Shown piece by piece: positions 7,653 to 50,847 of a DNA stretch of 55,820 nucleotides. The stretch is taken from contig JACAFA010000140.1 of assembly GCA_013388525.1 (NCBI GenBank), positions 1-55,820 on the forward strand. Direction: 5' to 3'. Origin of the DNA: Ignavibacteriaceae bacterium (GTDB taxonomy: Bacteria; Bacteroidota; Ignavibacteria; Ignavibacteriales; Ignavibacteriaceae). Made by a program: the position numbers and the translations under genes. Below the pieces are notes generated by a model. It made no database searches, was not told where the DNA came from, and was given only the letters and a program-made list of their open reading frames with translations. Numbering within the stretch: position 1 is the stretch's first letter; the number at the start of each line of letters is the position of its first letter.

Positions 7653-10600
7653 TTGAAGTCAAGTTTTAAAATCATTTTTATACTTCTTTTAATGCTGACC
7701 TCTCAGCATTTTTACGCACAGCAAATCTATTTTCAAAAAGCTGTTACAGATACTATTAAGATTAATTTTCAAAATATTTATAATCTCTCTCAAACCTCAA
7801 TTATCCCTTTTTCTGAAAAAATTGTCTTAAGAAAAACTATTCTTCGTCGCGGAATTGATTATAACATCTCATATTCTGAGCTGAATTTCAAGCTAAGTGA
7901 TACGCTGGCATATTCTATTTTCGACTCTTTGTATGTCTCATACTCAACACTGAAATTGTCACTTCAAAAGGAATATAAGAAAAGAGAACTCTTAATTAAA
8001 TATGATCAAGTGACAGGAGATACCCTGTTAATCAGTCAAACGACTTCCGGTGGTTTTTCTCCTGAGTCAATTTTTGGGAGCGGAGTAGAAAAAAGCGGCA
8101 CAATAGTACGTGGATTCACAATTGGTACTACAAAAGATTTTACCTTAAACAGCGGCTTAAGACTTCAGCTTTCGGGAAAAATTTCTGAAGACATTGAAAT
8201 TGTAGCCGCACTTACTGATGAAAACACTCCAATTCAGCCTGAAGGAAATACAGAGCGGCTTGAAGAACTGGATAAAGTTTTTATCCAAATAAAACATCCT
8301 AATGCGATTGGCACTTTTGGCGATTATCAACTTAAACGAAGACAGGGCGAGTTTGGTGTTGTTGATAGAAAATTACAGGGCTTGTTGGGTGAATTCAATT
8401 ACGCTAATCAATATGGATATGTGGCGATTGCAAGTTCAAAAGGTAAATTTAATTCTAATAGTTTTAATGGACAGGATGGTGTTCAGGGGCCTTACCGGCT
8501 CAGCGGAATTAACAATGAAAGAGACATAATTGTTATCGCAGGAAGTGAAAAAGTTTTTATTGATGGTCAGGAGTTGAGGCGGGGTGAAGATAATGATTAT
8601 ATTATTGATTATTCTAATGCAAGAATTACTTTTACACCAAGAAGACTGATAACCAGTGCAAGCCGTATCAATGTGGATTTTGAATATACTGACAGGCGGT
8701 TTGCAAGAAATTTTTTCACAACCGGTATCGAATCAAATTTATACGACAACAAGCTCGGCATAAAATTTCAGTATCTGCGCGAGGGAGATGACCAGGATTC
8801 TCCAATTGATTTAACTCTCTCTGAAAATGATAAAAAAATTCTTTCAGATGCCGGAGATGACCGCAATAAAGCGGTAAAGTCAGGTGTTACCTTGGCAGAA
8901 CCCGATTCTCTCGGAAGAGTTATTGGAACTTACATTTCCGTCGACACTTTAATTTCAGGATCGAACTTTACTTATTATTTATATTCCCCCGGAGATTCAT
9001 CTGCAATTTATAATGTTTCATTTTCATATGTGGGTGAATCTCAGGGCGATTATATTCGTGAAAGTCTTGGTAATTATGCATTTGTTGGTATAAAGCAGGG
9101 AAGTTATCTGCCGATCATTTTTCTTCCTTTACCTGAACTTAAGCAGCTTGCAGATTTATCTCTTGAAATTAAACCGTGGAATGATTTGCAAATCAATCTC
9201 GAATATGCTGGAAGTCTTTGGGATAAAAACAGGCTTTCAGCACTTGAAGAAAAAGATAATTTTGGATATGCAAGGAATATTTATCTAAAACTAAATCCAA
9301 AGGAAATTGTAATTGCTGATTTAAATTTAGGCAGAATCGGGTTTTCATATAAAGATCGTTTCATTCAGGATAAATTTACTTCTGCCGACAGATTTAATGA
9401 AGTTGAGTTTAACAGGAATTATAATTTATCCGGCATTTCAAAACAGGAAAACGAACAGCTCCGTGAATTTACTCTCAATCTTATCCCGGTTGAACTGGTA
9501 CGCTTGAATTCATCTTACGGATTTTTGAAAAGAGGTGAAAACTTTAAATCGAACCGCTTTAATAACCTATTGAAGTTTTCAGATAATAAAACTTTCAACC
9601 TTGATTATAACTTTGATTTTGTTTCCTCAAAGAATCTAAATCTTTCAAGCAGCTGGATCAGGCAAAATGGAAATGCTTACTATACATTTCTGGTTTTCAA
9701 ACCGGGATTGGAATTTATTGCTGAGAATAGGAAAGATAAAAGGAGCAATTCAGATTCTCTTCTTACAGGAAGTTTAAGGTACAACGAATTGAGCCCCTTT
9801 CTCGAATTGTTAAACATAGATGGATTCAATGCAACTGCTAAACTTTCTTTCAGGCAGGATTTTCTGCCTGAAAACGGATTGATGCTTTATGAGTCTAAAT
9901 CGACCGCACAATTTTTTCAGCTTAATTATTCCGGAATTCAGGAAATAAAAACAAATCTTAGCTTTACTTTAAGGAAAAAAAGTTTTTCTGAAAATTTCAA
10001 GAAAAAGGGATTCCTTAACAATGAAACAATTCTGATCCGGTCTCAGAGCAAGTTTAATTTTTGGGGAAAAATTCTAAACGGTGATTTATTTTATGAAGTA
10101 TCAACACAAAAATCTGCCAGACTTCAGAAGGTATTTGTCAGGGTAGAACAGGGGACGGGTAACTTTCGCTATCTCGGTGATTTGAATAACAACGGTATCG
10201 CTGATGAGAACGAATTTGAACCTGCGGTTTATGACGGTGATTATGTTCAGATTACAGTTCCCACTGATGAGTTATTCCCTGTTATTGATTTAAGGACAAG
10301 CACCCGTTGGAAAGTTAAGTATGGCGAAATATTTGAAAAAAAATCTTTTATTTCAGCTATCCTTAATCCACTGACAACTGAAACATTTTGGAGAATCGAG
10401 GAGAACAGCAAAGAAGAAGATTTCAAGAAAATTTACCTTCTGAATTTTTCCTATTTCCAAAACGAAAAAACAACTATAAGGGGTTCAAATTATTTTCAGC
10501 AGGATTTTTTCCTATGGGAGAACCAGCAGGATCTTTCATTCAGAATCAGATTTGCCCAGACAAAGAGTCTGAATCAATTTAGCGGTGGAGTCGAGCGTAC

Positions 10601-11126
10601 ATTTAAACGTGAACGAAGTTTGAGAATCAGATTTAAAATGATTGCAGAGGTAAGCAACCAAACTGATCTTGTTAATGAAACCGATAATGTTGGAGCACCG
10701 GTTAGTTCCAATAGAAAAAGAAGAATCGATAATAATTATGTCAGTTCTGATTTTTCATACAGACCTGAGAAAAATATCGAAGTAGGTTTCAGAATTAAAG
10801 TTGGTAAGAGTGAAGATACTTATCCTGAAAAGCCATCAATCATTGATTTGAACTCACAATTAATTCGTTTCAACTTATCTTTTCTCGGAACAGGCAGGTT
10901 AAGAGTTGAAGTCGAACGAAATGAGCTGATTGCAAATGCTACGAACAATATTATTCCTTTTGAACTAACTGGTGGAAACCAACTGGGGAAAAATTATTAC
11001 TGGCGAATGTATTTTGATTACAGACTTTCGCAGAATCTTCAGGCAACTGTGAATTATGATGGAAGAATACAAGGCGGCGGAAAAGCAATTCATACAGCAA
11101 GAGCAGAAGTACGTGCTTATTTCTAA
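7653..11126 (+). CDS. Very large outer-membrane/surface beta-strand protein, SprA-like region
   Basis: 1157 residues beginning with a signal peptide (MKSSFKIIFILLLMLTSQHFYAQ) from a TTG start; the next in-frame ATG (7692) would cut the signal short. The rest is dominated by alternating aromatic/polar strands typical of a huge beta-barrel. A block at about residues 145-360 (GTIVRGFTIGT, TDENTPIQPEGNTERLEELDKVFIQ, GPYRLSGINNERDIIVIAGSEKV, RRGEDNDYIIDYSNARITFTP) strongly recalls the Bacteroidota SprA/gliding-associated surface family. Near residue 845, DLNNNGIADENEFEP looks like a calcium-binding loop. A role in secretion or surface assembly is inferred; this is not a certain SprA because SprA is about twice as long. 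No clear Shine-Dalgarno was seen. Confidence 0.6.
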   Translation: MKSSFKIIFILLLMLTSQHFYAQQIYFQKAVTDTIKINFQNIYNLSQTSIIPFSEKIVLRKTILRRGIDYNISYSELNFKLSDTLAYSIFDSLYVSYSTLKLSLQKEYKKRELLIKYDQVTGDTLLISQTTSGGFSPESIFGSGVEKSGTIVRGFTIGTTKDFTLNSGLRLQLSGKISEDIEIVAALTDENTPIQPEGNTERLEELDKVFIQIKHPNAIGTFGDYQLKRRQGEFGVVDRKLQGLLGEFNYANQYGYVAIASSKGKFNSNSFNGQDGVQGPYRLSGINNERDIIVIAGSEKVFIDGQELRRGEDNDYIIDYSNARITFTPRRLITSASRINVDFEYTDRRFARNFFTTGIESNLYDNKLGIKFQYLREGDDQDSPIDLTLSENDKKILSDAGDDRNKAVKSGVTLAEPDSLGRVIGTYISVDTLISGSNFTYYLYSPGDSSAIYNVSFSYVGESQGDYIRESLGNYAFVGIKQGSYLPIIFLPLPELKQLADLSLEIKPWNDLQINLEYAGSLWDKNRLSALEEKDNFGYARNIYLKLNPKEIVIADLNLGRIGFSYKDRFIQDKFTSADRFNEVEFNRNYNLSGISKQENEQLREFTLNLIPVELVRLNSSYGFLKRGENFKSNRFNNLLKFSDNKTFNLDYNFDFVSSKNLNLSSSWIRQNGNAYYTFLVFKPGLEFIAENRKDKRSNSDSLLTGSLRYNELSPFLELLNIDGFNATAKLSFRQDFLPENGLMLYESKSTAQFFQLNYSGIQEIKTNLSFTLRKKSFSENFKKKGFLNNETILIRSQSKFNFWGKILNGDLFYEVSTQKSARLQKVFVRVEQGTGNFRYLGDLNNNGIADENEFEPAVYDGDYVQITVPTDELFPVIDLRTSTRWKVKYGEIFEKKSFISAILNPLTTETFWRIEENSKEEDFKKIYLLNFSYFQNEKTTIRGSNYFQQDFFLWENQQDLSFRIRFAQTKSLNQFSGGVERTFKRERSLRIRFKMIAEVSNQTDLVNETDNVGAPVSSNRKRRIDNNYVSSDFSYRPEKNIEVGFRIKVGKSEDTYPEKPSIIDLNSQLIRFNLSFLGTGRLRVEVERNELIANATNNIIPFELTGGNQLGKNYYWRMYFDYRLSQNLQATVNYDGRIQGGGKAIHTARAEVRAYF

Positions 11127-21207: not shown

Positions 21208-24054
21208 ATGAGCCAAAAGCTACTATCGTTTGTTGCTATCTCTTTATTAGCTCTTATTTTTTATTCCTGCGGAGGTAATACAGAGATAACAAAGAACGAA
21301 ACCTCCAATTCCACACAGGTTACCGTTATTGATGGTGGAATTGTTTCAGAAATGTTAGAACAAGCGAGACAATATTATGTTATTGCTCTTGCAAAGCAGG
21401 AAATCAACAGCACCACAGAAGCTGTTGATAATTATGAATCAGCACTTCGAATAATAAACAACCTAAGTTATTACCCCGGTATTGATGAAAATGAAGCTTA
21501 TACAGAGCTTGAAAAGTCTATCATCGATGATTATAGAAAATATGTTGACCGCATTTCTGAACTTCCAGATGCAGTATCTTTTGCTGCACTTGAAGAGTGG
21601 ATAACTAAAAGTGTTCCTGAGATACAATTAAAGTTTGAAGAGGAACAGAATTATAAAAGGTTCGTGATTCCTGCCGATATCCCGCTTGAAGTAAATGCTT
21701 TTGTTCAGCAGTGGCTGGATTATTTTACAGGAAAAGGACGCGGAGCAATGGAACGCTGGCTAGAACGTTCCGGAAAATATTTCCCGATGATGGTGAAAAT
21801 ATTCTCTGATGAAGGTTTGCCTCAACAGCTTGTTTATCTCAGTATGATGGAAAGCGGTTTGAATCCTACTGCCAGATCCTGGGCAAGTGCAGTTGGTTTA
21901 TGGCAATTTATTAAATCAACCGGAAGACTCTACGGTTTAGAGACAGATTTTTATTTCGATGAAAGACGTGATCCTGTTAAATCTACAACGGCAGCTGCCA
22001 GACATTTAAAAGATCTTTACAATTCTCTGGGTGATTGGTATTTGGTTCTTGCAGCATACAATTGCGGCGAGGGAAGAGTAACAAAAGCAATAAGGAAAGC
22101 CGGTGACAGTGATTTCTGGTCAGTCAGAAAATATTTGCCTAAAGAAACACGTAATTATGTACCAATTTATATCGCAGTTAGTTTAATTGCACTTGAACCT
22201 GAAAAATATGGCTTTACAAATCTAACTTTAGAAAAGCCTTATGAATATGATGTTTATATGATTGATGGTGCAATCGATTTAGGATTTCTTGCCACAAGTG
22301 CAGGTACTGATCTTGAAACATTGATGGACTTGAATCCGGAATTAACTCAACTTTGTACTCCGGCTTCATATCCCGGAGGCTATCCCTTAAAAATTCCCAA
22401 AGGCACAATTTCAACCTTTGCCTCAAATATTTCAGTAATACCTGACTGGGCAAAACGAACTTATCTTGTTCATACTGTAAGAAAAGGTGAAACTTTATCC
22501 AAGATCGCCGGCAAATATGGTGTAACGAAATATGAATTAGCCGATGCAAATAATATCTCGGTTAAGACGAAATTATCCCGTGGGGTTAAGCTTAGAATTC
22601 CAATTACAAATTTGTCTTCTAATGATTTCGCTTATAATACCGATACCGAAACAGCGGGTGAAACTCCATATGTAATCAACGAAAACTATGTTTCTCCTTA
22701 TAGTTATTTGAATCAGGAACAAAATACTGAAAAAGATGCCGGTGTTGAGCAGAATTCTGAAAACATTAGTGAAAGTGAAGACATCATTCTTACTTCAAAC
22801 GAAAATGATAGAAATGTTGAAACTGGAAATTTAACCAGCCTTATTCCTGAGGGATTTGTCGCTGTTAATTATCGTGTTAAAAAGGATGATAGTCTTTTGG
22901 AAATTGCAGAACTTTTCGGAACCAGAGTTAGTGACATAAGAAACTGGAATAATATTCCATATACAGATAGAATTTCTGTTGGACAGAATTTGACTGTGTA
23001 CGTACCTGCTGATAAGAAAGATTTTTATGCAAGTCTGGATAACCAAACCCCAATTGAAAAAACTACTATAAAAAACACAGTTAGAAAGAATTCATCAAGT
23101 ATTGTATATCATAAGATTCGAAAGGGTGAGAGCCTGGGTTATATTGCCTCAAAGTACGGCGTTTCGGTTGATGATCTGAAATCCTGGAATAATATTTCAG
23201 GCAATAAGATATATTCGGGCAAAAAGCTGAAAATTTATACCGAAAAAGCTCCAACTTACACTTCGAATGAAACAAATAAAAAGAACACTTCTAATGTATT
23301 CAGATATAAAATTAAGCGTGGAGATACTATAAGCGAAATTGCTGAAAAGTTCGGAGTTTCAGTTTCACAGATTAAAAAATGGAATAAGATTTCTTCAAAT
23401 ACTTTGATCGCCGGACGAACTATTAAGATTTATTCAAGTGATTATTCCTCATCTTTGGGTGATAATACTGTAAAAACATCTGCAAACGTTGTTTATTATA
23501 AAGTTAAAGCCGGTGATACAATCGGTGAAATTGCCGAGAAGTTTAAAGTATCCTCCTCTGCAATTCGGAAATGGAATAATTTAAAAAGCAATAAAATTTT
23601 AAGCGGATCCACGATTAAAATTTATTCCGATGTGGATGTAAACGATGTTCCAGAAACGAAGGGAAAAAATGTCACCAATTCCAATAATAAAAATTCAAAT
23701 GTCAATTCGAATACTAACACCAATATTAACTATATAAAGCATACAGTCTCTAAGGGTGAAACTATTGGTGAAATAGCCGCTAAGTACAATGTTTCTATAG
23801 TGGATATTAAAAGCTGGAATGATCTGTCGACTTCAAAAATTATTGCCGGAAAAGTTTTAAAAATTTATCCAAATTCAACCATAAACAATAAAAATAACAA
23901 CAATACGAGTAACAGCAGTATTCATACAGTGCAAAGCGGAGAATCACTGTACTCCATTGCTAAAAAGTATAACACTACAGTAGATAAATTAAAATCTGTA
24001 AATAAACTTAATTCAGACAAACTTAAGGTAGGTCAAAAAATAACAATACAATAA
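21208..24054 (+). CDS. Lipoprotein lytic transglycosylase (MltD-like) with seven LysM repeats
   Basis: 948 residues. A lipoprotein signal ends in the lipobox FYSC (Cys at about 21). A soluble lytic transglycosylase domain spans about 190-340: [20 protein letters not shown] with the catalytic Glu in MMESG, then [12 protein letters not shown] and [11 protein letters not shown]. Seven LysM peptidoglycan-binding repeats follow, the first near 430 ([18 protein letters not shown]) and the last ending the protein ([18 protein letters not shown]). Asn/Ser/Thr-rich linkers separate them. MltD-like proteins usually carry two to four LysM domains. The enzyme cleaves glycan strands from the outer-membrane side. 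Confidence 0.92.
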
Positions 24055-41050: not shown

Positions 41051-42094
41051 ATGAGCAGCAATATTTCAGAAACATCACTGAGAAAAAAGGAACATCTTGA
41101 ATTATGTATGACGGATGATGTATCCTTCAAAGAAAAACAGAATGGCTTTGATAATTATGATTTCGTGCATTACGCAATCACTGAAGTTGAACTTGATAAA
41201 ATAAACTTCACCACAAAATTCCTTGGTAAAAAAATTAATTTTCCTTTTTTAATTTCGTGCATGACCGGCGGGGCAAGTGAAGCTGAAAATATCAACGGAC
41301 AACTTGCTGTAGCGGCATCGCGGTTGAATATTGCTCTTGGTGTCGGCAGTCAGCGGCAGGCACTCGAAGGCAAGCAATTTCATCATTCATACAGAATCAT
41401 AAGAAAAAATGCTCCTTCGGTACCTTTGCTTGGCAATATCGGTGCTGCTCAACTTGTTAAGATGAATTCAGTTGATCAGATAAGAATGCTTATTGAACTT
41501 GTCGAAGCCGATGCTTTGGTGGTTCATGTTAATCCACTTCAGGAATTGATTCAGAGAAACGGTGAACCGAATTTCAGAAATCTGTTAAAAAAAATTAAAT
41601 GGCTTGTTAGTAAAGCCGGTGTTCCTGTAATTGTTAAAGAAGTTGGTTCCGGAATTTCAAAAGAAGCTGCGGCCAAATTATTGGATGCAGGTGTAAAAGG
41701 TATCGATGTAGCGGGTTCGGGAGGTACGAGCTGGGCAGCAGTTGAAATTCTCAGAAATAAAGAAACCACAGATGATTTCTGGGATTGGGGATTATCAACC
41801 TCGTATTGTTTAAGAACTATTTATCCTCTGAAAAAAAAATTTAATTTTGATCTTATAGCTTCAGGTGGAATAAATAATCCATTTCACCTTGCAAAAGCGT
41901 TTGCACTTGGTGCAGACATATCGGCATCTGCAAGAATTGTTTTGCAGACATTAAATAAATCAGGAGTTGAAGGAGTTGTCAGGCTTATTGAAAGCTGGTT
42001 CGGGGTCATGAGTAAAATAATGTTTCTTACCGGTTCTAAAAACTTAAAGGAGCTCAGGAAGAATAAAGTTAAAAGAAGGGAATTACTAATCTGA
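41051..42094 (+). CDS. fni: Isopentenyl-diphosphate delta-isomerase, type 2 (FMN)
   Basis: 347 residues. Family blocks are SLRKKEHLELCM at the N-terminus, FPFLISCMTGGASEAENING, GVGSQRQALEG, VHVNPLQELIQRNGE, VIVKEVGSGISKEAA and LIASGGINNPFHLAKAFALG. It interconverts IPP and DMAPP using reduced FMN, NADPH and Mg2+. Its stop shares a base with the next start (TGATG), and the product is the substrate of that prenyl synthase, so the two form a functional pair. Confidence 0.94.
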   Translation: MSSNISETSLRKKEHLELCMTDDVSFKEKQNGFDNYDFVHYAITEVELDKINFTTKFLGKKINFPFLISCMTGGASEAENINGQLAVAASRLNIALGVGSQRQALEGKQFHHSYRIIRKNAPSVPLLGNIGAAQLVKMNSVDQIRMLIELVEADALVVHVNPLQELIQRNGEPNFRNLLKKIKWLVSKAGVPVIVKEVGSGISKEAAAKLLDAGVKGIDVAGSGGTSWAAVEILRNKETTDDFWDWGLSTSYCLRTIYPLKKKFNFDLIASGGINNPFHLAKAFALGADISASARIVLQTLNKSGVEGVVRLIESWFGVMSKIMFLTGSKNLKELRKNKVKRRELLI

Positions 42095-43086
42095 TGGAAT
42101 CAAAAGCAAAATCATTTGAAGCGCTTTATGACCGCGAGAGAAAAAAAGTTGACGCTTTACTTGTTAAAGCATTAAAAAACCGTAAACCGCAGTCACTTTA
42201 CAATCCCGGTTCATATATAATTGCCGGAGGAGGCAAGAGACTTCGCCCGCTGCTGATTTTATTTTCAGCGAAAGCGGCTGGCGGCAAATTTAAAGATGCA
42301 TATAATGCTGCTGCAGCAGTTGAGCTTCTTCATAATTTCACACTTGTACATGATGATATTATGGATAATGCTGATATGAGGCGCGGCAGGCTTACTCTTC
42401 ACAAAAAATATGATATTAACACCGCAATTCTGGTTGGTGACAGTTTGCTTTCGATCGCATATGAATACTTACTTAAAGATTGTAACGGCAATTCAAAAGC
42501 TGTAATAACTTCTTTTACTAAAAGCCTTGTCGAAGTATGTGAAGGACAAAGCATGGACAAGGAATTTGAAACTGCTGAGAACGTAACCATTGAAGAATAT
42601 ATTACAATGATAAGAAAAAAGACGGCAGCATTATCACAAATGTGCTGTGAAGTGGGTGCATTAATCGGCGGAGGCAAATCAAAAGTAGTTAATGCTCTTT
42701 CAAAATTTGGAAGATATATTGGAATTGCTTTCCAGATTCAGGATGATCTTCTGGATATAACAGCAAACCAGGCTGAGTTTGGTAAAATAATTGGCGGAGA
42801 CCTGGTTGAAGGCAAAAAAACATTTTTATTTCTTGAAGCACTGAGTAAATCTTCAGGCGAAGAGAGAGAAAAGCTTCTTGCTGTAATTAAGAGAAAGGGT
42901 GTTGATAAATCTGAAATTCCGGATTACAAACTTCTCTATGAAAAACTCGGAGTGATTGACGATGCACGAAGAGAAATCAAAAAGTATACAAGCAAAGCAA
43001 TAAAATCTTTGAACGTTCTTAAAAAGAAAGAAGACAGGGAAATTTTTCATTGGCTGGCAGATTCCCTGATTAAGCGCAACAAATAA
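42094..43086 (+). CDS. Polyprenyl (probably geranylgeranyl/farnesyl) diphosphate synthase
   Basis: 330 residues. The first Asp-rich motif is LVHDDIMDNADMRRG (DDxxD, about 87-101) and the second is IAFQIQDDLLDI. The fifth residue before the first motif is Phe (FTLVHDD) and the fourth is Thr; an aromatic at -5 generally limits chain growth, so a C15-C20 product (FPP or GGPP) is more likely than a long-chain quinone precursor. Start overlaps the isomerase stop by one base, and its own stop overlaps the HPr start (TAATG). Confidence 0.9.
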   Translation: MESKAKSFEALYDRERKKVDALLVKALKNRKPQSLYNPGSYIIAGGGKRLRPLLILFSAKAAGGKFKDAYNAAAAVELLHNFTLVHDDIMDNADMRRGRLTLHKKYDINTAILVGDSLLSIAYEYLLKDCNGNSKAVITSFTKSLVEVCEGQSMDKEFETAENVTIEEYITMIRKKTAALSQMCCEVGALIGGGKSKVVNALSKFGRYIGIAFQIQDDLLDITANQAEFGKIIGGDLVEGKKTFLFLEALSKSSGEEREKLLAVIKRKGVDKSEIPDYKLLYEKLGVIDDARREIKKYTSKAIKSLNVLKKKEDREIFHWLADSLIKRNK

Positions 43087-43352
43087 TGATAGAAACTACC
43101 GTTACAATTGTAAATAAAGCCGGGCTGCATACTCGTCCTGCAGCAACTATTGTAAAATTAGCATCAAAATATCAGTCTGAATTTTTTATAACCCGCCAGG
43201 GGATGCATATTAATGGCAAAAGCATAATTGGAGTTATGACTTTAGCAGCTGAGTACGGATCAGAGATTACACTTTCATTTGATGGACCTGATGAAGCCGA
43301 AGCAGCAAAAGAAATAGTGGATTATTTTAACCGAGGATTTGACGAACTTTGA
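43086..43352 (+). CDS. ptsH: Phosphocarrier protein HPr
   Basis: 88 residues. The phosphorylation site is NKAGLHTRPAA with His15. The regulatory Ser46 lies in INGKSIIGVMTLAA, so control by an HPr kinase/phosphorylase is possible. HPr accepts phosphate from enzyme I encoded next. Starts and stops overlap on both sides (TAATG before, TTGA after). No sugar-specific EII component lies in this window. Confidence 0.95.
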   Translation: MIETTVTIVNKAGLHTRPAATIVKLASKYQSEFFITRQGMHINGKSIIGVMTLAAEYGSEITLSFDGPDEAEAAKEIVDYFNRGFDEL

Positions 43353-45115
43353 AAACATTCAAAAAAATATATCAGGAAGCTACCAACAAAATCGCCGGAA
43401 TTGCAGCAGCCCCGGGAATAGTAATCGGACCGGTTTATGTTTACACTAAAGAAAAACTTGAGATTGGCAAACAAACGATTAAGGATGTTGATGAAGCACT
43501 TGTCAATCTTGATGAAGCACTTGCCAAATCTAAAAAAGAGCTGAATAAAATTTTCGCAATCGCAAGAGAAAAAATGGATGAAATACGTGCGGCAATTTTT
43601 GAAGCTCATATGATGATTCTTGACGATCCGATTCTTATCGGAAACATAAGAAACAGAATTATTAAAGAAAAACTTGAACCCGGTTATATTGTTAACGATG
43701 AGATTACACGCTACCAGGATTTAATGATTGTATCGCACGAAACCTATATGAAGGAACGTGCAAATGATATTGAAGACATTAAAAACAGGATCATAAGAAA
43801 TCTGCAAAAGAAGAGACTGCAATCATGGATACAAAAAGACATGATAGTTGTCAGCGATTTTCTGACTCCTGCAGATACTCTTCTATTTTCACGAAGCAGC
43901 GCCCGCGGTTTTGTTACAGACCACGGAGGCTTAACTTCCCATGCAGCAATAATAGCGCGCTCACTTAATCTCCCGGCTGTTGTTGGAACTCATAACGCGA
44001 CCGAAAAAATTAAAGATGGTTCTACCATAATTGTTGATGGCTTCCACGGCTATATTCTTACCGATCCAACTGAAGAACAGATAGAATTTTTTACAGCTAA
44101 ACTTGAAAGATTAGTTGCTCTGCAAAAAGATCTTGAGGAGTTGAAAGAAGAATCTGCAACTACTATTGACGGTAAGGAAATTCAGCTAAAAGCAAATGTT
44201 GATGTATCGGGAGAAATTGACATTGTAATCACAAGCGGTGCACAGGGTATAGGTTTGTACAGAACCGAGCAGATTCTAGAGGAACTTGGCGAGTTTATTA
44301 ACGAAGAGGAGCAATCAAGAATCTATACAAATCTTGCAACAAGGATTTATCCTCAAACACTCACCATTCGGGCATTTGATATCGGCGGTGATAAGTTCAA
44401 GTTTCTTGATTTTAAGGAAGCAAATCCTTTTCTTGGTTTAAGAGGTATTCGCCTTCTTCTGGAAAATCCCACATTATTCAAAACCCAGATAAGAGCAGTA
44501 TTAAGGGCAAGTGTGAATAAGAATGTTCAATTTATGATTCCGATGGTTTCAACTCTGGAAGAATTACGCAAATCAAAAAAGCTGATTGAAGAATGCAAAC
44601 ACGATTTGAGGAAAGATAAAATTAAATTTGATTCGCATTTGAAAATTGGTATTATGGTTGAAGTTCCTTCCGCAGCAGTAATGACAAAAGAATTTGCCGA
44701 GGAGTGTGACTTTTTAAGTATCGGAACAAATGATCTTATTCAATACTTAATGGCTGTTGACAGAGGTAACGACCTGGTTTCAAATCTTTACCAGGAATTC
44801 AGTCCTGTTGTTATAAGAACAATTAAGCACATCGTTGAAGAGGCTGGAAAGGCCGGTAAATCAGTAAACATCTGCGGTGAGATGGCTGCCGACACACTTG
44901 CAATTCCTCTGCTGGTCGGGCTTGGATTGAAATCATTAAGTATTTCTCCGGCAACTATTCCATATGCAAAACGCATAATCAGAAAGTTTGAATACAAAAA
45001 AGCAAAAGAGCTTGCTGATCATTGTGCTCAATTGAAAACTGAATTTGAAATTCAGAAATTAATTCAGCAGTTCTTCGTTGATAATAATATCACGAGAACA
45101 CGAAACATTATTTAA
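43349..45115 (+). CDS. ptsI: PTS enzyme I (phosphoenolpyruvate-protein phosphotransferase)
   Basis: 588 residues, usual for EI. The N-terminal HPr-binding domain is followed by the phospho-His loop DHGGLTSHAAIIARSL (His198). The PEP-binding barrel has GIGLYRTEQILEE, DIGGDKFKFLDFKEANPFLG, FLSIGTNDLIQYLMAVDRGN and the active-site Cys region NICGEMAAD. The start is TTG overlapping the HPr stop by four bases (TTGA). It transfers phosphate from PEP to HPr. There is no N-terminal GAF domain, so it is the sugar-type rather than the nitrogen-type EI by architecture. Confidence 0.95.
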   Translation: MKTFKKIYQEATNKIAGIAAAPGIVIGPVYVYTKEKLEIGKQTIKDVDEALVNLDEALAKSKKELNKIFAIAREKMDEIRAAIFEAHMMILDDPILIGNIRNRIIKEKLEPGYIVNDEITRYQDLMIVSHETYMKERANDIEDIKNRIIRNLQKKRLQSWIQKDMIVVSDFLTPADTLLFSRSSARGFVTDHGGLTSHAAIIARSLNLPAVVGTHNATEKIKDGSTIIVDGFHGYILTDPTEEQIEFFTAKLERLVALQKDLEELKEESATTIDGKEIQLKANVDVSGEIDIVITSGAQGIGLYRTEQILEELGEFINEEEQSRIYTNLATRIYPQTLTIRAFDIGGDKFKFLDFKEANPFLGLRGIRLLLENPTLFKTQIRAVLRASVNKNVQFMIPMVSTLEELRKSKKLIEECKHDLRKDKIKFDSHLKIGIMVEVPSAAVMTKEFAEECDFLSIGTNDLIQYLMAVDRGNDLVSNLYQEFSPVVIRTIKHIVEEAGKAGKSVNICGEMAADTLAIPLLVGLGLKSLSISPATIPYAKRIIRKFEYKKAKELADHCAQLKTEFEIQKLIQQFFVDNNITRTRNII

Positions 45116-45127
45116 CATTATTTTACT

Positions 45128-46165
45128 ATGCTAATAAAAGACTTCGTTGAAAAGTTTGATTCTCAGGATCAATTCAGTGTTCTGAGGAATTCTTATACAC
45201 AAATTGATAATGCCTGGAAGTATAAACCTGACCTGAGCAAACTGGATGGTTTTAAATTTAACCAGGTTATAATCTCAGGGCTTGGTGGTTCAGCTATTGG
45301 GGGAGAGCTGCTGGTAAATTTTTTAAGGAACGAATTAAGTGTTCCCGTAGTTGTAACCAGAAATTATAATCTTCCTCCATATGCAAATTCAAAAACACTT
45401 GTAATTGCATGCTCTTACTCCGGAAATACTGAAGAAACAATTTCTGTTTTTCAGAACGCAATAAAAAGGGAATGCCCTTTAATCGTATTGACAACCGGAG
45501 GAAAAATCAAATCACTTGCTGATTCCTCAAACGTTCCGGTAATAATTTTGCAGGATGGATTTCAACCAAGATTTGCGCTTGGTACAAGTTTTTTCAGCCT
45601 CTTAAAAGTATTTCAAACATTAAAGCTTGCTTCTTCGCAGGATAATACAGTCCAGAGTATATCTTCATTATGGAAAACAAAATCGGTTGAGTACACAACT
45701 GAAAACAATACTGCGTACCGGATAGCAGAAAGTCTTATTGGATTCATCCCGGTTATTTATTCAGTCAGCGATTTCACAAATTCAGTTGGCTACAGGTTGA
45801 AATGTCAGTTCAATGAAAATTCAAAAATGCATGCATTTCACAATTCATTTCCTGAAATGAACCACAACGAGATTGTTGGCTGGGAAAACAATCCTGAAGG
45901 AAAGCTTAATCCTGTGGTTATAAGTATTTTAGATAAAGATTATCACCCTCAAATCAAAAAACGCTTTGAGATTGTTTTGAGGAATATTATTGGCAAAAAC
46001 TGGCTTATCATAAATCTTGAAAGCGAAGCAAATGAGTTCAAGGTTCGATTATTGGATTTGATTTATTTGTGCGATTGGATAACTTTCTACGCAGCAATAC
46101 TCAGAGGATTCGATCCCTCCGAGATTGATTTTATAAATAAGCTGAAAGAAAAACTCAGCAATTAA
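45128..46165 (+). CDS. Bifunctional phosphoglucose/phosphomannose isomerase
   Basis: 345 residues with two SIS domains. The opening SIS motif is IISGLGGSAIGGELLVNF (about 48-65), followed by ACSYSGNTEETISVF (about 98-112). FHNSFPEMNHNEIVGWEN holds the likely catalytic Glu. This archaeal/bacterial PGI/PMI family interconverts fructose-6-P with glucose-6-P and mannose-6-P. It starts 12 bases after enzyme I, so it is probably cotranscribed with the HPr/EI pair and places a central sugar-phosphate step beside the PTS genes. Confidence 0.9.
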   Translation: MLIKDFVEKFDSQDQFSVLRNSYTQIDNAWKYKPDLSKLDGFKFNQVIISGLGGSAIGGELLVNFLRNELSVPVVVTRNYNLPPYANSKTLVIACSYSGNTEETISVFQNAIKRECPLIVLTTGGKIKSLADSSNVPVIILQDGFQPRFALGTSFFSLLKVFQTLKLASSQDNTVQSISSLWKTKSVEYTTENNTAYRIAESLIGFIPVIYSVSDFTNSVGYRLKCQFNENSKMHAFHNSFPEMNHNEIVGWENNPEGKLNPVVISILDKDYHPQIKKRFEIVLRNIIGKNWLIINLESEANEFKVRLLDLIYLCDWITFYAAILRGFDPSEIDFINKLKEKLSN

Positions 46166-46197: not shown

Positions 46198-49008
46198 TTG
46201 CTAAAACTTTTTTTCAATATTTCCTTAATTCTGATTTTCTCCTCGCAATTTACTTTCAGCCAGTATTATTTTTTCGGACGAAACAAAGTTCAGTACCAGC
46301 AGTTTGACTGGAAGATTCTTCAAACCGATCATTTCAATATTTATTACTACGATGAAATGAAAGATGTAGCGGAGTTCGGAGCTTATTACGCCGAAGAGAT
46401 ATTTGATGAATTAAAAGTGAGGATGAATTTTCTTGTCACTCAAAAAATTCCCTTAATCTTTTACAACACTTCAAATCACTTTCAGCAAACGAATACAACA
46501 CCCGGCTTTATTCCCGAAGGTGTTGGCGGTTTCTTTGAATTTATGAAAGGAAGAGTTGTTCTTCCTTACAGCGGGTCGTTAAGCGAATTCAGACATGTGA
46601 TCAGGCACGAAATTGTTCACGTATTTATGACCACAAAAATATTTAAAATTCTTCGCGATCATCGGTTAGTTGCAGATCGTCTTCCACCACTTTGGTTTGT
46701 TGAAGGTCTCGCTGAATATTATTCGACTGAAGTTGATGCCCAGGCGAACATGGTTATAAGAGATGCGGTAATCAACAATTACTTCGTCGGGTTACAGGAT
46801 ATGTACAGGATTTATGGTTCATTCCTGATGTATAAAGAGGGACAAAATTTTCTCGAGTATGTTGAAGAAAAATATGGTGCTGAAAAAGTATTATTACTTC
46901 TGGATAATTTCTGGATGTACAATGATTTTGAAGAATTGATGGAATATGTCCTCGGCAAAAAAATTGAAGAAATCGACAGAGACTGGCAGTATTATCTGAA
47001 GAAAAAATATTATCCGCTTCTTCAAACCAATGCGCCACCTGCCTACTTAACAAAAAAACTAACTAATGAAGGATTTAATTTTTCTCCTGTTTACTATAAA
47101 AAGGATGAAAGAAATTTTATATACTTCCTCGCAAACCGTAATGGCTACTCCTCAATTTACAGGCTTGATCTTGAAAACTATGAAGAAAAGGACCCCGAAC
47201 TGGTTCTTCAGGGAGAAAGAAGTGAAGAACTGGAAGCTTTTCATCTGTTCCAGTCTTCAATTGATATTTCAGAAAGCGGCGAACTGGTTTTTGTTTCAAA
47301 ATCCGGCGGAAATGATGTGATTCATTTTTTTTCGCTTGAAGATGAAGAAATTATCAGAACTTTTAACAGGGATTTCCTTGTAAGTATTTCCTCGCCAAAA
47401 TTTTCTGACGATTCCCAAAGAATAATTTTCAGTGCTGTTGATCAAAAAGGATACAGTGATATTTTTATCTACGAAATCAGTCAGGATTCTTTGTACCGCC
47501 TGACTAACGATATTTACGATGACAGAGATCCGGTTTTTATACCGGCACAGGATAAAATTATTTTCTCGTCTGACCGAACTTCCGGAAAATTTCAGGAGAA
47601 CTATAATCTTTTCACTTTAAACCTGGAAAATTTTTCGATCAATTACTTAACCTATCTCGATTGTAACAATTACAATCCGGTTGTTTCATCGGATGGAAGC
47701 AATCTATATTTTACATCCGACAAAGATGGAGTACGCAATATCTGGAAACTGAATTTAAATCAGTCAGATCTTCAGCCCGAAGTTGAAAAAGTTACAAGTT
47801 TTTTAACCAGCGCTTTCTTCCCATCATTAATCAGCAATTCAAAAATAATTTTTTCGGGTTTTGAAAATTTTTCCTTCAATCTTTATGAACTGGATCTGAA
47901 CAATAACAAATCTGATTCACTTTACGCTTTCAATTTCAGTTTCGGCGATGCAGGAAAAACCTGGATGCCTTACCGGATTTCCGGGGATGTTAAACGTAAG
48001 AAATATGAGTATGAAAAAGAATATACACTCGATTATGCTCAAAGCCAGATAACAACCGACCCGATTTATGGAACGAGGGGCGGTGCAGTAATTTCTCTCA
48101 GCGATTTGCTTGGTGATGATCAGTACTTTTTCCTTATTTACAACACAGCCGAAGTTCAAAGCGAATTCCTTCAGAGTTTTAACGTCGCGCTTGAAAGAGT
48201 AAACCTCAGCAAAAGAGCAAATTATGGTTATGGTATTTTTAATTTCAGCGGAAGAAGATACGATTTGAGAGATGTTGATGAATATTATTTTGAAAGAAAC
48301 CTCGGGGGCTATCTTGTTTTAAATTTCCCGCTTTCAAAATTTACCAGACTTGAAGCGAAACTGAGTTTAGCTAATTCGGATAAAGAAGTCATTCGCGGTG
48401 TTATTGAAAGAAAAGCACTTCTTTTAGGAAATTCTATATCCTATGTTTTTGATAACAGCCTTTGGAGTTCAACCGGACCGATTGATGGAATCAGGGCACG
48501 GCTGCTTTTAGGTTATACCGGTGACATTAAATATTCCAATGTGAATTATTTTTCAATCATTGCAGATTACCGACAATACATCAGGTTGGGATTATATTCT
48601 GCTCTTGCTCTCAGGGCGTCACTCTATTATAACGAAGGCAAAGAAGCCCGTAGATACATTGTTGGAGGCAGCTGGGACTTAAGAGGCTGGCCAAGATGGT
48701 CAATCAGAGGTCAGAAGGTTTGGGTTTCATCGGTTGAGTTTCGCTTTCCATTGGTTGATGAAATTAGTTTTAAGTTTCCTTTTCTGGACATAGGATTCTG
48801 GCGTTTGCGTGGCGCACTTTTTTATGATATGGGAAATGCGTGGGATGATAAATACACAAACACACTCGGAAGTGTTGGCTTTGGATTCAGAATTAATTTG
48901 TGGGGTATAATTGTACTCAGATATGATATGGGAAAGAGGATTGAAAACGGTTTCAAAGATTTTCAGAAAGGTATGTTTTACCAATTCTTTTTTGGATGGG
49001 ACTTCTGA
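46198..49008 (+). CDS. Metallopeptidase-like / TolB propeller / Omp85-like barrel protein
   Basis: 936 residues from a TTG start that directly follows an ATTTGCACAA stretch. A signal peptide (to about 22) is followed by a gluzincin-like domain with HEIVH (137-141) and WFVEGLAEYYS (166-176) as candidate third-ligand segment, as in Peptidase_MA-type domains. A six-bladed TolB/PD40-like propeller spans about 290-600 (DDSQRIIFSAV, DKIIFSSDRTS, DGSNLYFTSDKDG). The C-terminal third (about 640-936) is beta-strand rich, with RRYIVGGSWDLRGWPRW and GALFYDMGNAW like the LRGY and strand motifs of Omp85 barrels, ending in aromatic GWDF. Function unknown; it overlaps the next gene by 13 bases. Confidence 0.7.
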   Translation: MLKLFFNISLILIFSSQFTFSQYYFFGRNKVQYQQFDWKILQTDHFNIYYYDEMKDVAEFGAYYAEEIFDELKVRMNFLVTQKIPLIFYNTSNHFQQTNTTPGFIPEGVGGFFEFMKGRVVLPYSGSLSEFRHVIRHEIVHVFMTTKIFKILRDHRLVADRLPPLWFVEGLAEYYSTEVDAQANMVIRDAVINNYFVGLQDMYRIYGSFLMYKEGQNFLEYVEEKYGAEKVLLLLDNFWMYNDFEELMEYVLGKKIEEIDRDWQYYLKKKYYPLLQTNAPPAYLTKKLTNEGFNFSPVYYKKDERNFIYFLANRNGYSSIYRLDLENYEEKDPELVLQGERSEELEAFHLFQSSIDISESGELVFVSKSGGNDVIHFFSLEDEEIIRTFNRDFLVSISSPKFSDDSQRIIFSAVDQKGYSDIFIYEISQDSLYRLTNDIYDDRDPVFIPAQDKIIFSSDRTSGKFQENYNLFTLNLENFSINYLTYLDCNNYNPVVSSDGSNLYFTSDKDGVRNIWKLNLNQSDLQPEVEKVTSFLTSAFFPSLISNSKIIFSGFENFSFNLYELDLNNNKSDSLYAFNFSFGDAGKTWMPYRISGDVKRKKYEYEKEYTLDYAQSQITTDPIYGTRGGAVISLSDLLGDDQYFFLIYNTAEVQSEFLQSFNVALERVNLSKRANYGYGIFNFSGRRYDLRDVDEYYFERNLGGYLVLNFPLSKFTRLEAKLSLANSDKEVIRGVIERKALLLGNSISYVFDNSLWSSTGPIDGIRARLLLGYTGDIKYSNVNYFSIIADYRQYIRLGLYSALALRASLYYNEGKEARRYIVGGSWDLRGWPRWSIRGQKVWVSSVEFRFPLVDEISFKFPFLDIGFWRLRGALFYDMGNAWDDKYTNTLGSVGFGFRINLWGIIVLRYDMGKRIENGFKDFQKGMFYQFFFGWDF

Positions 49009-50141
49009 TAAAAAAAATATTACCAGTTCTTATACTGCTTATTTTAAGCGGCTGCGCAGTTACAAAGATAAAACTTTCGGTAAAAGCTGATAATAATGCT
49101 TACACTTCATTCGGTAATGATCCCGGTAGGAATTTTTATTCAGCAGTACAGATAAGTGATTCAGTAAGATTGCTTTGGTCCGAATCTGTCAATGGAAATT
49201 TTTCACATTCATCTGCTGCAGTATATGATGAATATTTATTTGTTAGCGATCTTTCAGGAAGAGTTTATGCGTTCAATGCTTTAACTGGCAAGAAAGCCGG
49301 AATGCTAAAATCCTCCGGAGCTGTTTATACTACTCCCATTTTAGACAGATTTACAGTTTGTTTTACAACAGCTCTAATCAATGATAATAAATCTGTTCTT
49401 ACGATTTATGATTTTGATGCCGGACAGATTAAAGCAGAAAAAACATTTGAAGGTAAATCAATTACAAATCTGGTTTTTGACGATCAGAAAATTTTTATAT
49501 TAACTGAAAACGGAATTGCCTATTGTTTTGATCTTAACGGATCATTACTCTGGGAACGATCAACCGGAAGAAACACCCATTCTACACCCGCAATTATTGG
49601 TAACAAAATTTGTTTTGGCAATGATAAAGGCGAAATTATTTTACTTGATAAAAATTCCGGCGCCCAACTTTACTCTAAGAAATACGGAAGTGTTTTTTGG
49701 AGCGGCATAACTGTAAAAGATAATTTTATTTTTACCGCCGATGAAACAGGCAAACTATTTATGATTGATTCACAGGATGGAAGTGTGAAGTGGATTTATA
49801 AAACTAATTCGCGGGTTAATATGAATCCTGTTTGCGACAATGAAAATGTTTATGTCGGAAATTTGAAGGGTGATTTTTATTCAATACGGATTTTTGATGG
49901 AACATTAAACTGGAAAACAGAAACCAGGGGTTCATTATCAGCTACTCCTTTCGTTACTGATAACATTATAATTCAACCTGATCTGAATAAAAAAATTCTT
50001 TTCATTGATAGAAACAATGGAGTGATCCGTAAAGAGCTTTTTCTTGAAGGTCGGGCAAAACTATCTCCGATAATTTTTGATGATAAACTCTTCATAGGTT
50101 ACGACAATGGTGTTTTGGAGGCTTATGAATTTATTTACTAA
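48996..50141 (+). CDS. BamB-like PQQ beta-propeller lipoprotein
   Basis: 381 residues. The signal ends in the lipobox LILSGC (about 20), so it is lipid-anchored. Repeats about 40-45 residues apart carry the PQQ-propeller pattern, for example YAFNALTGKKAG, AYCFDLNGSLLWERSTG, FMIDSQDGSVKWIYKT and DGTLNWKTETRG. This is the fold of BamB, which assists BamA in outer-membrane protein insertion, but many unrelated PQQ-propeller proteins exist. The gene starts inside the end of the Omp85-like gene and overlaps the following PEGA gene, which strengthens a joint envelope role. Confidence 0.8.
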   Translation: MGLLIKKILPVLILLILSGCAVTKIKLSVKADNNAYTSFGNDPGRNFYSAVQISDSVRLLWSESVNGNFSHSSAAVYDEYLFVSDLSGRVYAFNALTGKKAGMLKSSGAVYTTPILDRFTVCFTTALINDNKSVLTIYDFDAGQIKAEKTFEGKSITNLVFDDQKIFILTENGIAYCFDLNGSLLWERSTGRNTHSTPAIIGNKICFGNDKGEIILLDKNSGAQLYSKKYGSVFWSGITVKDNFIFTADETGKLFMIDSQDGSVKWIYKTNSRVNMNPVCDNENVYVGNLKGDFYSIRIFDGTLNWKTETRGSLSATPFVTDNIIIQPDLNKKILFIDRNNGVIRKELFLEGRAKLSPIIFDDKLFIGYDNGVLEAYEFIY

Positions 50142-50847
50142 AAAAATATTGCTGCTTTTACTTTTACTGACCGGAAGTGCTGCATCACAGGATTGTACCA
50201 CCTCAGCATCAGTCAAAATTAATTTACTTTCGGAAATTTATATTAACGATTCATTGGCTTCAGTCTCCGCCGGATACAATTCTTTATTAAAACCCGGAAA
50301 ATATAAATTAACAGTCAAGCAAAGCGCAAAAGAATGGAATGGACAAGTAATAAACGAGGAATTCATCTTAAATGAATGCGAGTCTAAAATTTTTAATTTC
50401 AACTTTAAAGAAAAATTACTAATCCAAACTATACCATCGGACGCATCTGTATTTCTGGATGATTCTCTTGCCGGCTACACTCCGCTTAAAGTTTTCAAAG
50501 ATTTTAATTCGTTAAAAATCAGCAAACATGGTTATCAGGAAGAGTTATTATTCAAAGATGAACTGAAGAATTCTTCGGTTATTAATTTGGATTTTATTGG
50601 CAATAGTAAGCCACAGAGTTTTTATCAGGGAGATTTGTTTAAGATACTAATTGGCTCTTTGCTGCTTCTTGGAGGCACAACTGCATACTTCAAACTGCAG
50701 GCAGATGATTATTACGAGCAGTATCAACTTAATGGTGATGAGTCTCTTCTGAAAAAAACGAAAGACTATGATTTGATAAGCGGTATTTCATTTGGACTGG
50801 CGCAAATAAATTTCGGATATATTCTTTATTCCATTTTATCAGAATAA
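50125..50847 (+). CDS. PEGA-domain exported protein of unknown function
   Basis: 240 residues from ATG 50125, preceded by GGAGG (50117-50121) at a short three-base spacing; an in-frame ATG at 50107 would add MVFWRL before the signal peptide, which is unlikely. The signal peptide is LFTKKILLLLLLLTGSAASQ. A PEGA-like repeat stands out at about 110-150 (LLIQTIPSDASVFLDDSLAGYTPLKV). A single hydrophobic stretch (about 180-196) and a second near 220 may insert in the membrane. PEGA domains are often surface or signalling modules. It overlaps the BamB-like gene by 17 bases. Confidence 0.7.
   Translation: MNLFTKKILLLLLLLTGSAASQDCTTSASVKINLLSEIYINDSLASVSAGYNSLLKPGKYKLTVKQSAKEWNGQVINEEFILNECESKIFNFNFKEKLLIQTIPSDASVFLDDSLAGYTPLKVFKDFNSLKISKHGYQEELLFKDELKNSSVINLDFIGNSKPQSFYQGDLFKILIGSLLLLGGTTAYFKLQADDYYEQYQLNGDESLLKKTKDYDLISGISFGLAQINFGYILYSILSE

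Follow-up and report, generated by a model that had tools for sequence, protein, structure and literature searches.

Contig JACAFA010000140.1 of an Ignavibacteriaceae bacterium (GCA_013388525.1), all 55,820 nucleotides of which are referred to here as the window, raises the question of what a single polypeptide joining a peptidase domain, a propeller and an outer-membrane barrel might do for its cell. This polypeptide is the product of gene A, the first of three open reading frames on the same strand, and is followed by B, a BamB-like propeller lipoprotein, and C, a PEGA-domain protein (Table 1). The sequence confirms both reading-frame overlaps reported in an initial annotation of this DNA, and Pfam, a structure model and an alignment uphold the peptidase, propeller and barrel that it had assigned to A and the PEGA domain that it had assigned to C. 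A–B–C is a real, conserved envelope module. Our tentative explanation, to which we give slightly less than even weight, is that it works beside BamA in assembling some outer-membrane or surface proteins and controlling their quality, with the peptidase–propeller–barrel protein A acting with B and usually with C.

Table 1. Positions of the A–B–C genes and of features within them, counted from the first letter of the window.
Feature	Position	Strand	Remarks
Gene A	46198..49008	+	936 residues; peptidase-MA (gluzincin-like) domain, TolB-like propeller, BamA-type barrel
HEIVH motif of A, residues 137–141	46606..46620	+	Alignment of 95 sequences
E169 of A (EGLAE motif)	46702..46704	+	Invariant in 95/95; likely third zinc ligand
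C-terminal BamA-type barrel of A, residues 610–936	48025..49005	+	About 16 strands, from structure model
A/B reading-frame overlap	48996..49008	+	13 bases
Gene B	48996..50141	+	381 residues; BamB-like PQQ_2 propeller lipoprotein
Shine–Dalgarno-like TTGGAGG before gene C	50115–50121	+	Three bases ahead of the ATG of C
B/C overlap	50125..50141	+	17 bases
Gene C	50125..50847	+	PEGA-domain protein; C-terminal region moderately hydrophobic

A structure model built from 95 sequences, in combination with a fold search, gave the C-terminal part of A the BamA fold with about 16 strands, which places the protein in the Omp85 superfamily; the barrel anticipated by the initial annotation is present in the predicted structure. 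A first model based on 24 close homologues had a poor barrel, and the fold matches listed for it were mainly propeller proteins; the 95-sequence model was used instead. A picked set of three orthologues, of which P0005 is close and P0121 and P0234 are distant, passes the cut-off of the Omp85 family PF01103, and for the window's own A the barrel has no Pfam listing at E ≤ 1. Residues D827, R829 and D877 are invariant in all 95 aligned sequences and G830 is conserved in 93; we take R829/G830 to be the L6 RG motif and D877 to be the barrel Asp motif of Omp85 proteins. Pfam detects no POTRA in A, the N-terminal part of which is occupied in the model by the peptidase and the propeller, and A is not a BamA/TamA protein. 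With a propeller replacing POTRA and joined to an Omp85 barrel, it belongs to the WD40-Omp85 type. The absence of patatin and POTRA matches at E ≤ 1 in Pfam sets it apart from the PlpD type, and that of PF00149 at the same threshold from the Omp85 'Metallo' subfamily. Three pattern matches arose in viral contigs, none of which codes for a relative of A, and a viral fold library gave generic matches, many of them propeller proteins.

The hydrophobic N-terminus of A was judged by eye to be a signal peptide. The protein matches Peptidase_MA_2 (PF13485) at 35.2 bits (cut-off 32.4), and PD40 also lies above its cut-off. H137, E138 and H141 are invariant in 95/95 aligned sequences, and E169 is presumably the third zinc ligand, as in gluzincin families; the profile score, the HExxH motif and the downstream glutamate assign A to PF13485. 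The catalytic residues are intact and A would be expected to bind zinc and to act as a protease. Some relatives carry the NCBI names 'BamA/TamA family outer membrane protein' or 'peptidase MA family metallohydrolase', and automated annotation has therefore already come across the parts.

Conservation within A is highest in the peptidase domain (mean column identity 0.68, compared with 0.65 for the barrel and 0.54 for the propeller), as might be expected if A were a periplasmic peptidase that uses its barrel as an anchor or dimerization unit, with B and C regulating or localizing it; envelope or peptidoglycan-associated substrates may then be processed without the insertion of barrel proteins. 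A precedent is PlpD, which is described as homodimeric with a periplasmic enzyme domain (PMC11116518). We nevertheless consider this main rival rather unlikely. The signature residues of the barrel of A are invariant and the barrel is more constrained than that of the patatin-Omp85 proteins of the same genomes, coming close to BamA: compared over one shared set of 28 genome pairs, the barrels are on average 65.5% identical for A, 69.5% for BamA, 55.3% for patatin-Omp85 and 41.6% for one further POTRA-Omp85. At the level of sequence the constraint on the barrel is BamA-like, which argues against a mere anchor, although identity is not function. The barrel might alternatively export a substrate, or the peptidase itself, with cleavage taking place during or after export. 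The Omp85/TpsB superfamily is stated to include translocators such as FhaC (PMC4104836), and surface processing formed part of the suggestion made in the initial annotation. However, the peptidase of A is N-terminal, at the position that POTRA holds in BamA, and the N-terminal domain of PlpD, once thought to be exported, is reported to have proved periplasmic (PMC11116518); we regard such a translocation as improbable.

B matches PQQ_2 in Pfam at 88.7 bits (cut-off 27.6) and its Cys20 is invariant in the 31 aligned sequences, identifying it as a PQQ propeller lipoprotein. A first lipobox pattern fits 60 of 102 sequences (untrimmed frames) and a second fits 69; in 28 of the remaining 33, inspection by eye places a cysteine after a hydrophobic stretch. 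Against the BamB equivalog TIGR03300, B scores 113.3 bits with a cut-off of 285.2, and no match above this cut-off was found in any of 10 related genomes. The label 'BamB type' in the initial annotation is therefore sound as regards a PQQ propeller lipoprotein but fails at the equivalog cut-off: B is BamB-like but cannot be filed as BamB. That the propeller of A stands in for BamB is disfavoured, since a BamB-like protein is kept as a partner. Matches to B with one internal stop codon occur in the draft genomes G228, G219, G240 and G263. C matches PEGA (PF08308) at 27.1 bits (cut-off 20.8), which identifies it as a PEGA protein, and its N-terminus is hydrophobic by eye, suggesting export. A hydropathy scan of 84 C sequences was equivocal: 53 have at least one candidate segment close to the C-terminus and six have two or more.

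The order of the three genes was followed in a set of loci that is not a random sample, as it was drawn from the best 80 of 121 confirmed matches, the top 30 matches of a phylum search and 20 regions chosen for distance. Merging the 131 loci with A by identity of the last 250 residues of A left 115 distinct ones, of which 90 are near relatives, 20 are distant and five belong to neither group. The A–B–C order of the window proved to be conserved: where enough DNA was present, B follows A in 94/98 distinct loci, C in 64/75 and both in 63/75, and the 13-base overlap is kept in 73 of the 102 distinct loci with B. At L074 and L154 A lacks an adjacent B, and at L159 and L160 (genomes G188 and G048) B lies elsewhere in the genome. 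At L074:13041-13724 and L160:4339-5085 the N-terminus of the next gene product resembles, by eye, a cyclic-nucleotide-binding (Crp-type) regulator.

In the window, A is preceded (41051-46165) by a conserved run of genes for a type 2 isopentenyl diphosphate (IPP) isomerase, a prenyl diphosphate synthase, HPr, PtsI and a phosphoglucose/phosphomannose isomerase. In a set of 53 near loci, 45, 51, 51, 52 and 41, respectively, have these genes no farther than 5.5 kb from A, and for PtsI the upstream distance stays within 1.5 kb in 60 of 65 near loci. In such a setting adjacency does not imply partnership, and A, B and C might act separately as members of a conserved housekeeping operon with PtsI and others, a view that is also compatible with the mirror-tree results given below. 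The distant loci speak against it: B is kept in 16/19 and C in 16/19, with PtsI (within 5.5 kb upstream) in 8/17 and PrmC in 0/19. The module thus sits within a longer conserved run, yet outlasts that run in distant relatives. The named homologues of the distant kind belong partly to Rhodothermales (including Rhodocaloribacter litoris) and are partly given only as 'Bacteroidetes' or 'Bacteroidota'.

A fairer sample for co-occurrence came from the class to which one relative belongs, with 149 genomes. Initially 94 of these were counted as having A; G246 and G281 were dropped as they have only the type-2 paralogue, leaving A in 92, with B in 93 and C in 73. A and B occur together in 91 genomes, A only in one, B only in two and neither in 55 (phi 0.957). 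A Fisher test on these counts takes no account of common descent, and its p value is not to be read at face value. In the A-only genome (G304) the gene runs into a contig end; of the B-only genomes, G044 has a 630-residue protein that is probably not B but was kept in the count, and G302 contains B and C, preceded by 3.7 kb devoid of A. In 24 of the 91 genomes A and B lie apart, in G273 on one contig with more than 110 kb between them. At least 2.3 kb without A precedes B in 23 of the 24; G249, whose contig offers just 243 bases ahead of B, was counted as unlinked because A and B are on different contigs. G226 and G276, with B at a contig start, were counted as neither linked nor apart. C adjoins B in 17 of the 24 unlinked genomes (two by weak matches; 15 in a stricter count), and in G213 and G273 A stands with neither B nor C beside it. 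The co-occurrence of A and B, as computed here, goes beyond linkage, and this persistence in the 24 unlinked genomes leaves the separate action of co-transcribed genes a very improbable explanation.

All 10 related genomes contain several Omp85 matches (five to nine each), among them a POTRA-bearing BamA with four POTRA stretches and a barrel. The idea that A is itself the BamA of the cell was rejected on the basis of this separate canonical BamA; judging from the 10 relatives, A would add to BamA, not replace it. The one relative whose Omp85 proteins were typed also has a patatin-Omp85, other POTRA-Omp85 proteins and a divergent peptidase–propeller paralogue below the Peptidase_MA_2 cut-off. 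A second, longer family (13 loci, L167–L179, for example L168:5477-8653; about 1035–1114 residues) has the same peptidase–propeller–barrel plan by profile match, with HExxH in 13/13 and the EG motif in 12/13. RNase R is encoded in the same locus in 9/13, B and C are absent from all 13 loci, and some sources label the family 'biopolymer transporter Tol'.

From its BamA-type barrel and the constraint on it, its intact peptidase and its BamB-like partner, we infer that A takes part in assembling outer-membrane proteins or in controlling their quality. In the mechanism that we favour, A would be an Omp85 barrel of the WD40-Omp85 type in which a zinc peptidase and a TolB-like propeller replace POTRA, both most likely on the periplasmic side. 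B would be its outer-membrane propeller lipoprotein partner, usually joined by C as an exported PEGA protein, and the propellers of A and B would hold partners or substrates. The barrel might then take part in insertion or membrane opening, and the peptidase might trim or clear clients, by analogy with the separate peptidase BepA on the BAM complex of Escherichia coli. A with its partners would in this way assemble a subset of the outer-membrane or surface proteins and control their quality. The joint action of A and B at the outer membrane is the best-supported step, and we infer the periplasmic orientation, the physical complex and the client set. Of the working module put forward by the initial annotation, the domains and the gene order have held, and A and B co-occur even when unlinked, while its insertion or surface-processing function stays a proposal. 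It is possible, though doubtful, that A–B(–C) constitutes a second, POTRA-less assembly machine with a built-in protease beside BamA in Ignavibacteria and Rhodothermales, the propeller picking clients, the peptidase destroying or maturing failures and B acting as a dedicated BamB counterpart.

Several observations weigh against an assembly role. With no POTRA in A, there is no ground for presuming that substrates take a BamA-like route. The enzyme domain that PlpD carries on its Omp85 barrel is reported to stay periplasmic, with its authors suggesting reuse of the scaffold for new functions (PMC11116518). Other PQQ propellers, including designed ones, outscore BamB in comparisons with B. A search for C at E ≤ 1e-10 gave none in 20 of the 92 genomes with A, making C less firmly part of the system. 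Co-occurrence was counted over related genomes and the independent events may be few. Finally, in a mirror-tree comparison over 33 loci the partial correlation of A with B is 0.16 (p 0.02), which is not above that of control pairs (up to 0.52) and drops to 0.09 with another control set; the values are 0.20 (p 0.004) for B–C and 0.02 (p 0.40) for A–C.

Elsewhere in the window, positions 21208-24054 encode a lytic transglycosylase (SLT) that also carries seven LysM stretches, and 7653-11126 is an open reading frame of 1157 residues for which Pfam gives nothing at E ≤ 1e-5 and NCBIfam nothing at E ≤ 1e-10.

The open-licence literature in PubMed Central (PMC) yielded no report or characterization of the A–B–C module. 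The propeller–barrel architecture has been known since 2014, when Heinz and Lithgow named the WD40-Omp85 subfamily, likened it to a BamA–BamB fusion and gave TolB as the closest propeller structure (PMC4104836). As in A, the propeller is described as N-terminal to an Omp85 barrel, with no POTRA (PMC4104836). A differs in its peptidase domain: 'peptidase' and 'metallopeptidase' have no matches in the main text of that paper, although its supplements may list one (PMC4104836). What is added here is the N-terminal Peptidase_MA domain, the separate BamB-like partner, C and the co-occurrence data; the retention of a BamB-like lipoprotein as a coupled partner speaks against the fusion interpretation. 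A subfamily named computationally, of which the literature covered here likewise gave no characterization, thereby becomes a defined module: its catalytic residues are intact, it has a lipoprotein for a partner and its proposed job can be put to the test. The 'Metallo' subfamily of Omp85-metalloproteases, for which periplasmic proteolytic quality control was suggested (PMC4104836), is a precedent for the quality-control idea, although its enzyme domain is PF00149 and that of A is PF13485. PlpD likewise has an enzyme domain N-terminal to an Omp85 barrel (PMC11116518), but combines patatin with POTRA where A has peptidase-MA and a propeller, and the typed relative has a gene of its own for patatin-Omp85.

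The BAM complex, in which BamA is accompanied by BamB, resembles A and B in placing a BamA-type barrel beside a PQQ propeller lipoprotein; A differs in lacking POTRA and in its extra peptidase and propeller, and B in falling below the BamB equivalog cut-off. BepA offers a parallel to the function proposed for A as a zinc peptidase at an assembly machine, but is described as a free periplasmic protein associated with BAM (PMC8423444), whereas the peptidase of A is fused to the barrel. If the proposal is correct, outer-membrane assembly and proteolytic quality control would be combined in one polypeptide. The main text of two 2025 papers on Bacteroidota BAM, one of them PMC12578637, has no match for 'peptidase'. 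In Bacteroides thetaiotaomicron and Porphyromonas gingivalis the six-bladed propeller protein BamI is reported to take part in BAM, as propellers would here, but that machinery, BamI included, is described as mostly extracellular (PMC12578637). Whether any Bacteroidota have BamB is called not clear in the same account (PMC12578637), and the A–B pair, if it acts as we propose, bears on whether this phylum possesses a BamB-type subunit.
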